Part shown: one piece after another, positions 4,318 through 28,316 of the stretch
Position numbering within the stretch: position 1 is the first letter of the stretch
How the letters are laid out: each line of letters opens with the position of its first letter
Virus record (IMG/VR): IMGVR_UViG_3300047476_000714
Span: 1 to 36,567 of that record
DNA: 36,567 bases
DNA from: a virus
Strand: one strand, 5' to 3'
The notes under the pieces: model-generated
Told to the model about the DNA's origin: nothing
Seen by the model: the letters and a program-made list of their open reading frames with translations, nothing else
Databases searched by the model: none
Position numbers and translations under genes: made by a program

Positions 4318-4421
4318 TATTTAAGTACATCAAAGGCTGATGCGCGCGGCCGATGTTGCGGAAACAGCTTCACCATTGGTGGGGTTGACAGGTTCAATTC
4401 CTGTACGGTGTACTTAAATAT
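4317..4421 (+). other. folded tRNA-like spacer element closed by a 15-bp stem
   Basis: ATATTTAAGTACATC (4317-4331) pairs with GGTGTACTTAAATAT (4407-4421), with one G-U. The arms abut the CCA of tRNA-Ser(UGA) and the first base of tRNA-Ser(GCU). Inside is a good T-arm, ACAGG/CCTGT around TTCAATT (4388-4404), but no usable anticodon arm and no CCA. It may be a decayed tRNA or a spacer that folds away between two tRNAs. Confidence 0.5.
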
Positions 4422-5523: not shown

Positions 5524-5726
5524 TTAATTAGTGTTGTTGTGGAAAAATTCAGTGTTCACTTGAATAATGCACTCTCACTGACAGCTCTGTGTGCACGCAC
5601 CTGTTACGAGTTACGCTAAGACGAAAGTGGAATAAACTATCGACGGATAGCCCATACAAGTTTTAGGTGGTAAAAGCAAACGACAATAGGGTTATTGTTG
5701 TCCATAACATAGCAACACTAATTAAT
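5523..5726 (+). ncRNA. folded ~200-nt spacer RNA between tRNA-Ile and tRNA-Asp
   Basis: Closed by a perfect 14-bp stem, ATTAATTAGTGTTG (5523-5536) with CAACACTAATTAAT (5713-5726), and a second 7-bp stem, TTGTGGA/TCCATAA. The arms touch the A of the tRNA-Ile CCA and the base before tRNA-Asp. Inside are hairpins ATTCA-GTG/CAC-TGAAT, CTATC-gacg-GATAG and ACAATA-gggt-TATTGT. No credible ORF. It matches no RNA family I recognise. Confidence 0.55.
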
Positions 5727-9424: not shown

Positions 9425-9542
9425 AAAGATTATATAAAAGCTTTCTAAGTAACTACACTGGAACAACAGCAAAACTTCCGATGAAACCGGTCGAAGGAAG
9501 AATCTGCCAGGAAGAGTTGGGTTACCAAGGATTCAAGCGCCA

Positions 9543-9566
9543 TAGAGAGCCTCTATATAATTTTTT
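9543..9566 (+). terminator. terminator-like hairpin before tRNA-His
   Basis: ATAGAG-agc-CTCTAT followed by ATAATTTTTT. The same bases hold a TATATAAT box (ending 9561) ten bases before tRNA-His, so it may end one transcript and start another. Confidence 0.5.
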
Positions 9567-9570
9567 CAGT

Positions 9571-9749: not shown

Positions 9750-9824
9750 GCTTCTATAACATAATGGTTAATGTGAACGTCTCTAAAACGTGGTATCCGA
9801 GTTCGATTCTCGGTAGGAGCACCA
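9750..9824 (+). tRNA. tRNA-Sup(CUA), amber suppressor
   Basis: GCTTCTA/TAGGAGC acceptor (one G-U), stem ACGT/ACGT, loop CTCTAAA, so 34-36 is CUA, which reads UAG. T-arm CCGAG/CTCGG with loop TTCGATT and ACCA are normal. The charged amino acid is unknown; discriminator is A. Last tRNA of the array. Confidence 0.88.
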
Positions 9825-15445: not shown

Positions 15446-16072
15446 ATGTCTTTTGAATTTGATTTTACGCAAGAAAAACTAGCACATATCATCCCTAACG
15501 CACGTTATGGTGTTGATACATGGTTCAATGAATTATATGAACTATTACCTGTGTTCGGTATTAATACAGTTGCTCGTGTTGCTGCATTCGTTGCACAAAC
15601 AGCACACGAATCTGGTGGTTATACAGCTCTTAAAGAGAACTTAAACTATCGTGCAGAGACACTACAAAAACTATGGCCAAATCGTTTCGATGCTGCTACT
15701 GCAGCTGCATACGCAGGTAAACCAGAAGCTATCGCTAATAAAGTTTATGGTGGTCGTATGGGTAATGGCACTGAAGAAACTGGTGACGGTTATAAGTATT
15801 GTGGACGTGGTCTATTACAGTTGACTGGTAAAGATAACTACTCACGCTTCGCACAATATGCAGGTCTAGCAGTTGAAGATGCACCTGAATACATTGAATC
15901 ACCACGTGGAGCTGTTCACTCAGCTTGCTGGTTCTGGTCAACAAATGATTTGAATACATATGCAGATGCTGGTGATTTTATGGGCATGACTAAGCGTATC
16001 AACGGTGGTACAATCGGTCTTGATGATCGTATCAAGCATTATAATCACGCTGTAGAAATTCTATCAGCATAA
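15446..16072 (+). CDS. GH19-type endolysin (chitinase-like)
   Basis: 208 residues. The glycoside hydrolase 19 fold is clear: AQTAHESGGYTALKENLNY with catalytic Glu55 and Glu64, 'YGGRMGNGTEETGDGYKYCGRGLLQLTGKDNY' (motif GRG-x-x-Q-L-T), and 'NGG' near the end. In phages these enzymes cut the glycan strands of peptidoglycan. No signal peptide, so a holin or similar is needed. RBS AAGGAGCTCT. A second hydrolase (SleB type) is at 26051. Confidence 0.95.
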   Translation: MSFEFDFTQEKLAHIIPNARYGVDTWFNELYELLPVFGINTVARVAAFVAQTAHESGGYTALKENLNYRAETLQKLWPNRFDAATAAAYAGKPEAIANKVYGGRMGNGTEETGDGYKYCGRGLLQLTGKDNYSRFAQYAGLAVEDAPEYIESPRGAVHSACWFWSTNDLNTYADAGDFMGMTKRINGGTIGLDDRIKHYNHAVEILSA

Positions 16073-16082
16073 AAGAATTGTT

Positions 16083-16141
16083 GTAACTCCTTCAACACGA
16101 AGGACTTCTGGACGCGGGTTCGACTCCCGCCTCCTCCACCA
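16083..16141 (+). ncRNA. ssrA: tmRNA acceptor piece (3' part), permuted
   Basis: T arm GCGGG-TTCGACT-CCCGC (16114-16130), acceptor strand CTCCTCC (16131-16137), then ACCA. In a normal tmRNA this is the 3' end, but the matching 5' strand lies downstream at 16230. Just upstream is CTTCTG (16105-16110), which pairs with CAGAGG (16249-16254) as helix P2, and a TCCTTC/GAAGGA hairpin. The string GGACGCGGGTTCGACTCCCG is close to bacterial tmRNA 3' ends. Confidence 0.92.
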
Positions 16142-16229
16142 AAAGTATACTTAAATCTGTAAAAAGATCGGGATTGGTAAGCCGGAACCTCTACTCAGTA
16201 AGTTCATTTCACCATAGTATACTTTTGAT
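16142..16229 (+). other. intervening segment of the permuted tmRNA
   Basis: AAAAGTATACT (16141-16151) and AGTATACTTTT (16217-16227) form an 11-bp stem that continues the acceptor helix, so the two tmRNA pieces are held together before the loop is cut out. Confidence 0.8.
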
Positions 16230-16391
16230 GGGGGAGCCATGGTTTCGACAGAGGTAGATAGTAGAGACGGCAACACGGTAGATGACGACCGCAAATCGCA
16301 TAAATAAAGTAAACGCAAACGACTCACAGTTCGCATTAGCAGCCTAAACGCCGCTTAGGGTTTCGCAGGTTCCTCGTAACAGAATACCTGC
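16230..16391 (+). ncRNA. ssrA: tmRNA coding piece (5' part), tag ANDSQFALAA
   Basis: Starts GGGGGAG (pairs with CTCCTCC, including G3-U70, the alanine identity pair), then CATGGTTTCGACAG typical of tmRNA 5' ends. The resume codon GCA is at 16315; the tag reads ANDSQFALAA and stops at TAA 16347. CCTAA pairs with TTAGG (16343-16359), placing the stop in a helix as usual. A GCAGGT/ACCTGC hairpin (16365-16391) ends the piece. It rescues stalled ribosomes with SmpB, presumably from the host. Confidence 0.93.
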
Positions 16392-16413
16392 ATTTTAACA
16401 TAAGGAATGTTAT

Positions 16414-16653
16414 ATGAAGAAATTAATGTTAGCATTAGCAATTGCATTTGGTATGACGAGCGTACAAGCTGCTGATCCAAAACCCGCACCAAAGTTGGAT
16501 TGCACTAAACCTGCAAATAAGAACAAAGGTCCATGCTTAAAAGCACCAGAATCTAAGGTGAAGCCAACTATCGCTGCACCTGCAGACAAGAGTGTACGTA
16601 AAGCTCCTGCTGCAACACAGAAGAAAGCTGCTGAGAATAACGCTAAGCAGTAA
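16414..16653 (+). CDS. small secreted (periplasmic) protein
   Basis: 79 residues with a classic signal peptide (MKKLMLALAIAFGMTSVQA, cleavage after AQA-like VQA) and a short basic, Pro/Ala/Lys-rich mature part with two Cys (DCTKPANKNKGPC). It starts 23 bases after the tmRNA and may share its transcript. Unknown function. Confidence 0.75.
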   Translation: MKKLMLALAIAFGMTSVQAADPKPAPKLDCTKPANKNKGPCLKAPESKVKPTIAAPADKSVRKAPAATQKKAAENNAKQ

Positions 16654-26054: not shown

Positions 26055-26587
26055 CAGAAATATTAGTCGCGATCACTACATGGATATCGGCGCTTGTAAC
26101 ACCGATCCCACTAAATGAGCAAGATGTATATTGTCTAACACGCAACGCATACTACGAAGCGAAAGGGGATTCGCAGATGTCACAAATCGCTGTGACACAC
26201 GTAGTGTTAAACCGCATGAACACAGAAGGTTTTCCAAAGAAAGCATGTGATGTGGTTTATCAGAAGAATAAAAACCCAGAGAGTCAACGAGTAGTATGTC
26301 AGTTCTCGTGGACTTGTGATAGAAAATTGATGGGACAATTACCCGCACAAGAAGCAACAAGTTGGAGAGAATCACTCGCTGCAGTTGAAAAGGCTTTAGC
26401 GATGTATTACCATCGAAGAGTTGACGTCACTGAAGGCTCAACATTCTATCATGCACATTATGTCAATCCAGGTTGGAGAGGCGTTGAGAAGGTAACCACT
26501 ATCGGAAGCCACATTTATTATAGGACTCGTGAAAAATGTCAGAACAACCAGACGGACTGTACACAAAAAAGTCGTTCTCGAATTTAG
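26051..26587 (+). CDS. SleB-type cell-wall hydrolase
   Basis: 178 residues, Hydrolase_2/SleB fold: 'LTRNAYYEAKGD' (catalytic Glu36), 'IAVTHVVLNRM', 'CQFSWTCD', and 'FYHAHYVNPGW'. Such enzymes cut the glycan strand of peptidoglycan. N terminus is hydrophobic (ILVAITTWISALVTPIP), possibly a signal-anchor. It ends at TAG, with a TAA four codons later; the end overlaps the gp33-like start by 52 bases. Confidence 0.88.
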   Translation: MTEILVAITTWISALVTPIPLNEQDVYCLTRNAYYEAKGDSQMSQIAVTHVVLNRMNTEGFPKKACDVVYQKNKNPESQRVVCQFSWTCDRKLMGQLPAQEATSWRESLAAVEKALAMYYHRRVDVTEGSTFYHAHYVNPGWRGVEKVTTIGSHIYYRTREKCQNNQTDCTQKSRSRI

Positions 26588-26772
26588 TTCAAGAACGCGT
26601 AAAGAAGGATCGATCAACATACCTTGATGCAATCATTGATATTTGCAAAGAACGTATGATTGATCCTGAAGACATCGCAAAATTATTGAGTAATCCCATT
26701 AAGGCAAAGCTTGAAGCCGAAGGGATGAATTTAGGTTATTTGAAAAAGAAGAATGAGCTTACGTTCGACTGA
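26536..26772 (+). CDS. 33: gp33-like late-transcription coactivator
   Basis: 78 residues. The pattern 'SYLDAIIDICKERMIDPEDIAKLLSNPIKAKLEAEGMNLGYL' (here quoted in pieces: S-YLDAI, DPEDIAKLLS, IKAKLEAEAMN-like) is typical of T4 gp33 relatives, which bridge host RNA polymerase and the sliding clamp at late promoters. Its place before gp59 and gp32 matches T4. It agrees with the TATAAATA boxes found in the window. Confidence 0.8.
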   Translation: MSEQPDGLYTKKSFSNLVQERVKKDRSTYLDAIIDICKERMIDPEDIAKLLSNPIKAKLEAEGMNLGYLKKKNELTFD

Positions 26773-27373
26773 TCCGTTTGATGCATACAAGATCTACATA
26801 GGTTGTAAGCTTCACTTTGAGTCAAACTCGTATGACTATTTTAAATACAATGGTAAGACGAGTGTAAACGCAAAATCATTCTTTGCTCGCCGAGATAAGT
26901 TCTTCTTTGCAAAGGTCGTAAAGAAGTACGGACTCGATGAGCTCAAGACATTCTATGCATGTAACTTCGCACATCATGGCACCAAGTGGATTGGTGATTT
27001 GAATGAAGACCGCGCGGATGAGACTTACAAAGCATACAAAGCTTTGACAGAATCTTTCACGTATCGCTTCAAAAACTGTATAGATAATATTATATCGACG
27101 AATGACTTTAAGAGTTTATTTGTGGTAGAGGATGGACAACATCCTAAACTCGTTAAGATGTTACTTCAAGACGAGATACCACTCGAGATTTTTATTGTCC
27201 TTAATCGATATATTGGATTTATGCCAAAGTTCGACAAACAGATTACGGATCCCATCATGTGGCCCGAACTCTCGAAGAAGATCAAGAAGTATAATCCATT
27301 CATCACGGTGAATAACGAAAAAGTCAAGGATGCGCTAAAAGATTGTTTACAATCAAGTGCAGATGTGGTATAA
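26753..27373 (+). CDS. 59: gp59-like helicase loader
   Basis: 206 residues. Its N terminus, DPFDAYKIYIGCKLHFES, then 'YDYFKYNGKTSVNAKSFFARRDKFFF', is the signature of T4 gp59, which loads the gp41 replicative helicase on forked DNA coated with gp32. The fork-binding basic residues are kept. Overlaps the gp33 end and is followed by gp32, its partner. Confidence 0.92.
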   Translation: MSLRSTDPFDAYKIYIGCKLHFESNSYDYFKYNGKTSVNAKSFFARRDKFFFAKVVKKYGLDELKTFYACNFAHHGTKWIGDLNEDRADETYKAYKALTESFTYRFKNCIDNIISTNDFKSLFVVEDGQHPKLVKMLLQDEIPLEIFIVLNRYIGFMPKFDKQITDPIMWPELSKKIKKYNPFITVNNEKVKDALKDCLQSSADVV

Positions 27374-27419: not shown

Positions 27420-28316
27420 ATGTCTTTAGCAAATCTCAAAGCAAGTCGCTCAGGCGATATCTCTAAGCTAGTTGCAGCCGCTGAAAAAGTTGGCGGTGGT
27501 GCACAACAGCAATCCTATGAAGACAATCGACAGTGGAAACCAGAAGTCGACAAAGCTGGAAACGGTTTTGCGGTTATTCGTTTTCTACCTGCACCAGCTG
27601 GTGATGATTATCCATGGACTCGTTACTGGGACCACGGTTTTCAAGGTCCAGGTGGTTGGTACATCGAGAAGTCTCTCACATCGATTGGTCAACAAGATCC
27701 AGTCTCTGAACTCAACTCCAAACTTTGGAATAGCGGACTAGAATCCGATAAGGATATTGCACGTAAGCAGAAGCGTCGTCTTCACTATGTGTCTAACATC
27801 CTTGTTGTATCTGATCCTGCTCATCCCGAAAATGAAGGCAAGGTTTTCCTATTCCAATATGGTAAGAAGATCTATGACAAGATGATGGATGTTATGCAAC
27901 CACAATTCCAAGATGAGCAACCGGTAAATCCGTTTGATCTATGGGAAGGTGCAAACTTTAAGCTTAAGATTCGTAACGTTGAAGGTTATCGTAACTATGA
28001 CAAGTCAGAGTTCGATAAGCCAAGTGCACTCTTCAATGGCGATGAAGACAAGCTCGAAGCAGTTTACGCTAAGTGCTACTCACTCAAAGAGTTTACAGAT
28101 GCATCTAAGTACAAGTCTTATGATGAACTGAAAGCTAAGCTTGAGCGTGTACTTGGTGGTTCTGCTCCACGTACCACAGCTGAGTCAATCACTCTCGATG
28201 AATCTTCATCTGCACCATCTGCTCGCACTGCAGCACCAAAGATGGCACCAGTTGAAAGCGACGAAGGTGATGATGAGACTCTCAGCTACTTTAGTAAGTT
28301 AGCTAACGAGGCATAA
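27420..28316 (+). CDS. 32: gp32-like single-stranded DNA-binding protein
   Basis: 298 residues. 'NGFAVIRFLPAPAGDDYPW', 'RYWDHGFQGPGGWYIEKSLTSIG' and 'FLFQYGKKIYDKMM' are the core of T4 gp32-type proteins. N terminus (SLANLKASRSGDISKLV) is the cooperativity region; the C-terminal tail is acidic (ESDEGDDETLSYFSKL), as needed for partner binding. The Zn-binding Cys/His set of T4 gp32 is not obvious. RBS AAAGGAACTAT. Confidence 0.95.
   Translation: MSLANLKASRSGDISKLVAAAEKVGGGAQQQSYEDNRQWKPEVDKAGNGFAVIRFLPAPAGDDYPWTRYWDHGFQGPGGWYIEKSLTSIGQQDPVSELNSKLWNSGLESDKDIARKQKRRLHYVSNILVVSDPAHPENEGKVFLFQYGKKIYDKMMDVMQPQFQDEQPVNPFDLWEGANFKLKIRNVEGYRNYDKSEFDKPSALFNGDEDKLEAVYAKCYSLKEFTDASKYKSYDELKAKLERVLGGSAPRTTAESITLDESSSAPSARTAAPKMAPVESDEGDDETLSYFSKLANEA

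Follow-up and report, generated by a model that had tools for sequence, protein, structure and literature searches.

A permuted tmRNA gene beside a phage endolysin gene

The window, by which we mean the whole stretch of DNA analysed (36,567 nt, a 36.6-kb IMG/VR fragment with 28 tRNA genes), contains a complete circularly permuted tmRNA gene of the betaproteobacterial type at 16079–16413 on the plus strand. The features of this locus, and two T4-like genes of the same record, are the following:

15446–16072, +, endolysin gene (GH19-like), directly upstream of the tmRNA, its TAA stop (16070–16072) abutting the first piece (PHROG 181, E 3e-78; PF00182)
16079–16141, +, first-transcribed tmRNA piece, the 3' tRNA-like part with P2 strand CTTCTG, T-arm, CTCCTCC, discriminator A and CCA (RF04321 and RF01850 alignments, sequence; 5' end approximate)
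16131–16137, +, 3' strand of the acceptor stem, CTCCTCC, pairing with 16230–16236 (sequence; acceptor covariation in relatives)
16142–16229, +, spacer (IVS) of 88 nt, a putative structured RNA element with terminal TGAT (element model R1, 110.6 bits on 16140–16227)
16142–16152, +, 5' strand of the precursor helix, whose partner strand ends at 16225 (inverted repeat; register test over 60 phage loci)
16216–16225, +, 3' strand of the precursor helix, followed by TGAT at 16226–16229 (inverted repeat; register test)
16230–16347, +, second-transcribed piece, 5' part: GGGGGAG (16230–16236), GGTTTCGAC motif and P2 strand CAGAGG, to the tag stop (Rfam alignments)
16315–16347, +, tag reading frame ANDSQFALAA plus TAA, resume codon GCA (ARAGORN; sequence)
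16348–16413, +, second piece, 3' part: beta-type hairpin GCAGGT..ACCTGC (16365–16391) and a short hairpin before the next gene (RF01850 match to 16417)
16414–16653, +, gene for a 79-aa protein with a signal-like N-terminus, next downstream; an orthologue follows the tmRNA in contig L128 too
26753–27373, +, T4 gp59-like helicase loader (PF08993/PF08994)
27420–28316, +, T4 gp32-like ssDNA-binding protein (PF08804, E 1e-40; PHROG 224)

The Rfam model RF01850 (beta_tmRNA) matched the plus strand end to end (model 1–331, window 16041–16417, 156.2 bits, E 2e-48), RF04321 (tmRNA_permuted, model 1–213) matched 16079–16347 with 140.7 bits, and ARAGORN independently called a permuted tmRNA with the tag ANDSQFALAA*. 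The original prediction, made from the letters alone, had put a permuted two-piece tmRNA at this place and had named a covariance-model alignment beforehand as a test that might refute it; both models and ARAGORN bear the prediction out.

The acceptor 3' strand and the ACCA directly after it (16131–16141, with ACCA at 16138–16141) precede the 5' part (16230–16347) on the same strand, the order of a permuted gene. The T-arm reads GCGGG-TTCGACT-CCCGC, all seven acceptor pairs can form (GGGGGAG/CTCCTCC, including the alanine identity pair G3-U70), and P2 brings together CTTCTG and CAGAGG from different tmRNA pieces. The tag frame is intact, running from the resume codon GCA to an ALAA end (GCA..GCC, 16315–16344) and a TAA stop (16345–16347). 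A fully paired acceptor with G3-U70, a P2 formed across the pieces and this very tag had all been anticipated, and each is found. The T-arm and CCA part does lie upstream as predicted, and the gap, put at about 90 bases, measures 88 nt (16142–16229). The predicted extent of 16083–16391 was right in place and too short, since the first piece starts at about 16079 and the gene continues to 16413.

Judged from its gp32-like and gp59-like genes, the window is a fragment of a T4-like phage, and these genes and the endolysin in the same record support the earlier interpretation of the tmRNA as phage-borne. The beta-type tmRNA is a betaproteobacterial gene family, and bacterial DNA inside a viral contig could thus be invoked; this is not plausible, as misassembly would be required for a record that also holds T4-like gp32 and gp59 genes, a phage endolysin and a 28-tRNA array, and as a syntenic copy occurs in phage contig L128 and tmRNA copies occur in phage genomes of 160–385 kb.

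Pairing is retained among phage permuted tmRNAs. In 60 of them, observed pairing and pairing after shuffling of the partners were 100% and 87% for the T-stem, 99% and 90% for P2, and 100% and 95% for the acceptor, the acceptor percentage and the invariance of G3-U70 being partly built in by the selection (7/7 paired) and the scan pattern. Relatives reached by other routes also retain a full acceptor and G3-U70, and compensatory acceptor changes occur in L128 (GGGCGAG/CTCGTCC), in L287 (GGGGATG/CATCTCC) and in both L123 and L300 (GGGGCTG/CAGCTCC). On these grounds, namely the covariance-model E-values and the compensatory changes in relatives, a chance match to tmRNA is excluded. ALAA terminates 45 of the 60 phage tags, and intact tmRNA copies are held by L128, G038, G041 and G042, which are among the closest gp32/endolysin relatives of the window.

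Two-piece tmRNAs of other phages and of bacteria

Whether phage-encoded two-piece tmRNAs had already been described was a question left by the original prediction. They had: that of phage Melnitz was described in 2022 (PMC9004378), together with an ARAGORN count of 53 two-piece forms among 133 distinct phage tmRNAs (PMC9004378). We found beta-type permuted tmRNAs in the cultured phages Xanthomonas XacN1 and Rb1, Stenotrophomonas Marzo, Alcaligenes QDWS595 and Acinetobacter BUCT628, mostly unlabelled in their records. Given the 2022 description and these cultured copies, the phage-encoded two-piece tmRNA is not new as a kind. The T-arm pattern is shared by 119 IMG/VR stretches, many of them permuted tmRNAs and part of them one-piece forms. 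Jumbo phage XacN1 (L121, AP018399) gave two equal-scoring permuted tmRNA matches, at record positions 37231 and 356026; the match at 37231 lacks an annotation and has two CTA-anticodon tRNAs and a GOLLD RNA nearby.

Melnitz, a cultured and harmless marine phage of the Methylophilales (MZ577097) that infects OM43 strain H5P1, resembles the window in being T4-like, in carrying a permuted tmRNA with CCA, acceptor, tag and spacer, and in having a spacer-end helix in the same register with TGAT ahead of the 5' piece. Its tmRNA is alpha-type (RF01849, 107 bits), whereas that of the window is beta-type, and its 142-nt spacer contains an ORF that the record leaves unannotated, whereas the window spacer is a structured RNA. 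The glutamine riboswitch of Melnitz (PMC9004378) lies downstream of the tmRNA, outside the spacer. The betaproteobacterial permuted tmRNA (RF01850; Cupriavidus plasmid copies) shares the architecture, P2, G3-U70 and 3' hairpin of the window gene, and the plasmid copies also share the spacer-end helix and a GAT ahead of the 5' piece. However, the Cupriavidus spacer is a plain hairpin of 32 nt (three copies measured), while phage spacers are mostly 50–240 nt and appear to carry cargo. Spacer cargo is also reported by the tmRNA database (PMC11915505), which comprises 11,946 permuted tmRNAs: one spacer has a tRNA-Ala gene and another a repeat; protein-coding spacers or a recurrent structured RNA are not mentioned in its main text. 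The part that appears new here is the spacer, with its end helix, an RNA absent from Rfam, its exchange between phages, and its coding versions.

The spacer ends form a precursor helix

A 21-nt inverted repeat, 90% complementary, runs through the acceptor and spacer of the window (16131–16151/16216–16236). Spacer ends pair over about 10 bp in a single register, right after CCA and four bases before the 5' piece. In 60 phage genes, collected before any spacer-based scan, 94% of cells were paired at offset 0/4 compared with 35–55% in other registers, and swapping partners between phages gave a mean of 62% and a maximum of 69%. Alpha-type phage tmRNAs show this pairing in the same register, and four Cupriavidus plasmid copies, our bacterial comparison, fold with similar pairing around a short, empty-looking spacer. 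Thus, by these comparisons, the precursor helix is a feature of the family and not a phage invention. TGAT is the terminal tetranucleotide of 116 of 128 distinct spacers, a set collected in part with patterns that include TGAT. Spacers of 25 nt also occur.

A conserved RNA in the window spacer

Two patterns recovered the window spacer family in 20 further viral contigs, and the element occupies the tmRNA spacer in 15 of the 20. Four others, L422, L428, L432 and L435, have it between tRNA genes of the same strand, a few bases from the adjacent tRNA. An alignment of eleven distinct copies, all close relatives, gave a branched fold in which 98.7% of cells were paired, compared with 34–40% when slid. 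Two-sided changes were seen at eight pairs, six in the end helix and two in the interior; with two covarying interior pairs and the other interior helices invariant, the interior fold is only moderately supported. The element model recovered L005, a divergent member outside the training set, at 49.8 bits; weak matches in L046, L062 and L103 were not accepted as members.

An Rfam search of 16120–16250 at gathering score found only the tmRNA ends and sub-threshold chance matches, with no family for the element, ruling out a known riboswitch or other Rfam RNA, and blastn of the element against named phages gave no match. By its alignment and these searches, the window spacer is a conserved structured RNA absent from Rfam. 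T4 rnaC and rnaD are small stable RNAs beside tRNA genes of a T4-type phage, and the window element is likewise found near tRNA genes; identity with them was rejected, the best model match on the T4 tRNA cluster reaching only 9.6 bits (E 5.4).

At L436 6982–7069 the element stands alone, between flanks CATCTCCATCA and TGATGGAGATG that resemble a tmRNA acceptor without the remaining gene. Other recurrent non-coding spacers with the same end helix are shared by L002/L011/L072, L006/L032/L353, L119/L352, L356/L359, L361/L378 and L350/L396, and members of these families, searched against Rfam at gathering score, returned only tmRNA and tRNA, with nothing for the spacers. The spacers of L041, L056 and L111 contain tRNA T-arm-like fragments, as if captured tRNA genes had decayed.

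Short reading frames in the spacers of other phages

Among 110 distinct spacers of 40–400 nt, 20 contain an ORF that starts with ATG at spacer position 9–21 and whose stop codon falls exactly within the last four bases; dinucleotide shuffles produced 2.1 such ORFs on average and a maximum of 6 in 300. The remaining 90 spacers are without such an ORF, and some recurrent ones are of unassigned nature. For many of the ORFs, the 5' strand of the end helix includes a Shine-Dalgarno-like sequence, AAGGA or AAGGAG. Their products are hydrophobic peptides of 22–27 aa, peptides of 32–41 aa and soluble ones of 52–64 aa. pN was lower than pS in 9/9 homologous pairs, by a small difference in two very close pairs. 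Homologues of three spacer-ORF families are encoded outside the spacer and end at the first tmRNA piece (L437, L099, L305, L292), the position at which the endolysin of the window terminates too.

In the alpha-type Melnitz gene, a Shine-Dalgarno-led spacer ORF (product MFKWLSKTRLVVITRDYF...) lies inside the annotated SsrA. It is kept in marine relatives, with pN of about 0.03–0.28 and pS of about 0.15–0.7. In this group the frame stops within the spacer or extends 13 codons into the second tmRNA piece, as it does in Melnitz itself; the C-terminal tail differs among relatives, and one pair there has pN above pS. The spacer ORFs of other phages thus appear to be short frames, many Shine-Dalgarno-led, under purifying selection.

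Spacer and mature tmRNA are exchanged separately

In L128 the mature pieces are 95.5% identical to those of the window, against about 52% for the spacer interior; its spacer is unrelated to that of the window and encodes MNDNLNSLAIGVVIVLIVFALVLL, and the downstream gene is common to both. L423 shows the reverse, its mature pieces being 64% and its spacer interior 84% identical to those of the window. An alike tmRNA around an unrelated spacer, and a diverged tmRNA around an alike spacer, argue that spacer and mature tmRNA move independently. T4-type portal genes place four longer records, two with coding and two with structured RNA spacers, among T4-like phages.

Function of the tmRNA and its spacer

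What does the phage tmRNA do? Neither the window nor any of 49 related phage records, several of them of 160–385 kb, yielded an SmpB gene, and we assume that host SmpB must serve the phage tmRNA. Host assignment by way of a metagenome-assembled genome was rejected: a tag-context scan of genomes matched only L126 (CAIMDH010000093.1), a 3-kb contig in a small-genome MAG, with a phage-like gene set (permuted tmRNA, three tRNAs, ClpP-like ORF). As no other match above the beta-type cut-off was found in 142 genomes of the class of this MAG, L126 looks misbinned.

We infer cleavage into two RNAs and a tagging role. The tmRNA is probably co-transcribed with the endolysin operon, and host tRNA-processing enzymes, presumably RNase P and 3' tRNA nucleases as in the known family, would cut before G16230 and after A16141. 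After the predicted cuts, the two pieces would stay joined by the acceptor stem, P2 and neighbouring helices, for which the pairing is seen. AlaRS would charge the molecule via G3-U70, and the ANDSQFALAA tag, because of its ALAA end, would be expected to direct rescued proteins to ClpXP. Most likely, then, the tmRNA serves trans-translation in the phage with host SmpB.

Two other readings of the tmRNA were weighed. It could be a decaying copy captured from a host and functionless in the phage: imprecise excision is known to leave phages with fragments of ssrA (cited in PMC9004378), and the record has no SmpB. This is very improbable, however, since the structural elements, tag, stop and CCA are all intact, compensatory changes preserve pairing, and the close gp32/endolysin relatives L128, G038, G041 and G042 have intact copies. 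It could also compete with trans-translation by the host, for instance by titrating SmpB, and not supplement it, as phage DS6A has a tag-less tmRNA-like RNA that reportedly inhibits host tmRNA (PMC11915505, PMC4131195). In the window, by contrast, nothing is missing from the tag frame, the resume codon or the ClpXP-type ALAA end, and 45/60 phage tags have the ALAA end, making competition an improbable role, if a less remote one than decay.

As for the spacer, the reading frames could be chance products of AT-rich sequence ending at a fixed TGA, because with TGAT fixed at the processing site (116/128 spacers) some frames must end there. Chance predicts 2.1 such frames where 20 are seen, and it leaves unexplained the excess of pS over pN in nine pairs and in the Melnitz group, as well as the homologous proteins whose genes lie beside the tmRNA but not in its spacer; we give this reading little credence. 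A stronger competitor makes the element purely a cis-acting maturation module that joins the two halves, steers RNase cleavage and leads no independent life. Nearly every gene of the set has the end helix, which bacteria share, and the termini of the element adjoin the cleavage sites. Against this, four phages carry the element between tRNA genes and L436 carries it on its own; some spacers measure 25 nt, so that a large fold is not needed; and coding spacers take its place in close relatives. We regard a maturation role alone as possible and the less probable account.

We are fairly confident in the combined reading, based on these comparisons, that an intact phage tmRNA probably acts in trans-translation with host SmpB and that its spacer is a swappable slot, with precursor-helix ends, for a structured RNA or ORFs. 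In the simplest mechanism, each tmRNA half would act as a tRNA in a polycistronic transcript, so that processing would both mature the tmRNA and free the intervening spacer, possibly as a usable RNA. In TGA-ending spacers, an RNase P cut before GGGGG would end the mini-message one base past the stop. The cargo of the slot would share the processing signals of the tmRNA, its stop lying in the TGAT at the expected RNase P site and its start site inside or beside the precursor helix. We lean, by a narrow preference, towards the more specific proposal that the spacer of the phage split tmRNA is a gene slot for membrane microproteins, small soluble proteins or mobile structured RNAs that are freed on tmRNA maturation. 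As such a slot would exist in both alpha- and beta-type phage tmRNAs, the expression of the cargo may be coupled to maturation of the tmRNA.

The two-piece tmRNAs of phages are known, yet unexplained, and spacer cargo in the form of conserved proteins and an undescribed RNA would help to explain what phages gain from the split form. tmRNA annotation may also hide genes, as with the Melnitz spacer ORF inside annotated SsrA. An RNA that tmRNA spacers have in common with the spacers of tRNA arrays points to a class of small phage RNAs riding on tRNA processing, and T4 rnaC and rnaD may likewise do so.

Two observations were made on the tRNA array of the window. It closes with a tRNA with a CTA anticodon (9750–9824), called 'Pyl' by ARAGORN and probably an amber suppressor; amber recoding found no support as an explanation for this tRNA, as a TAG that seems to be a genuine stop terminates a 178-aa frame at 26587 and the frame beyond it is closed. 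Three inter-tRNA spacers, at 4318–4421, 5524–5726 and 9425–9570, fold end to end with long helices of 14, 18 and 12 bp, nearly flush with the tRNAs, and the one at 4318–4421 includes a T-arm-like hairpin. These three spacers look like further small RNAs of the tRNA array.
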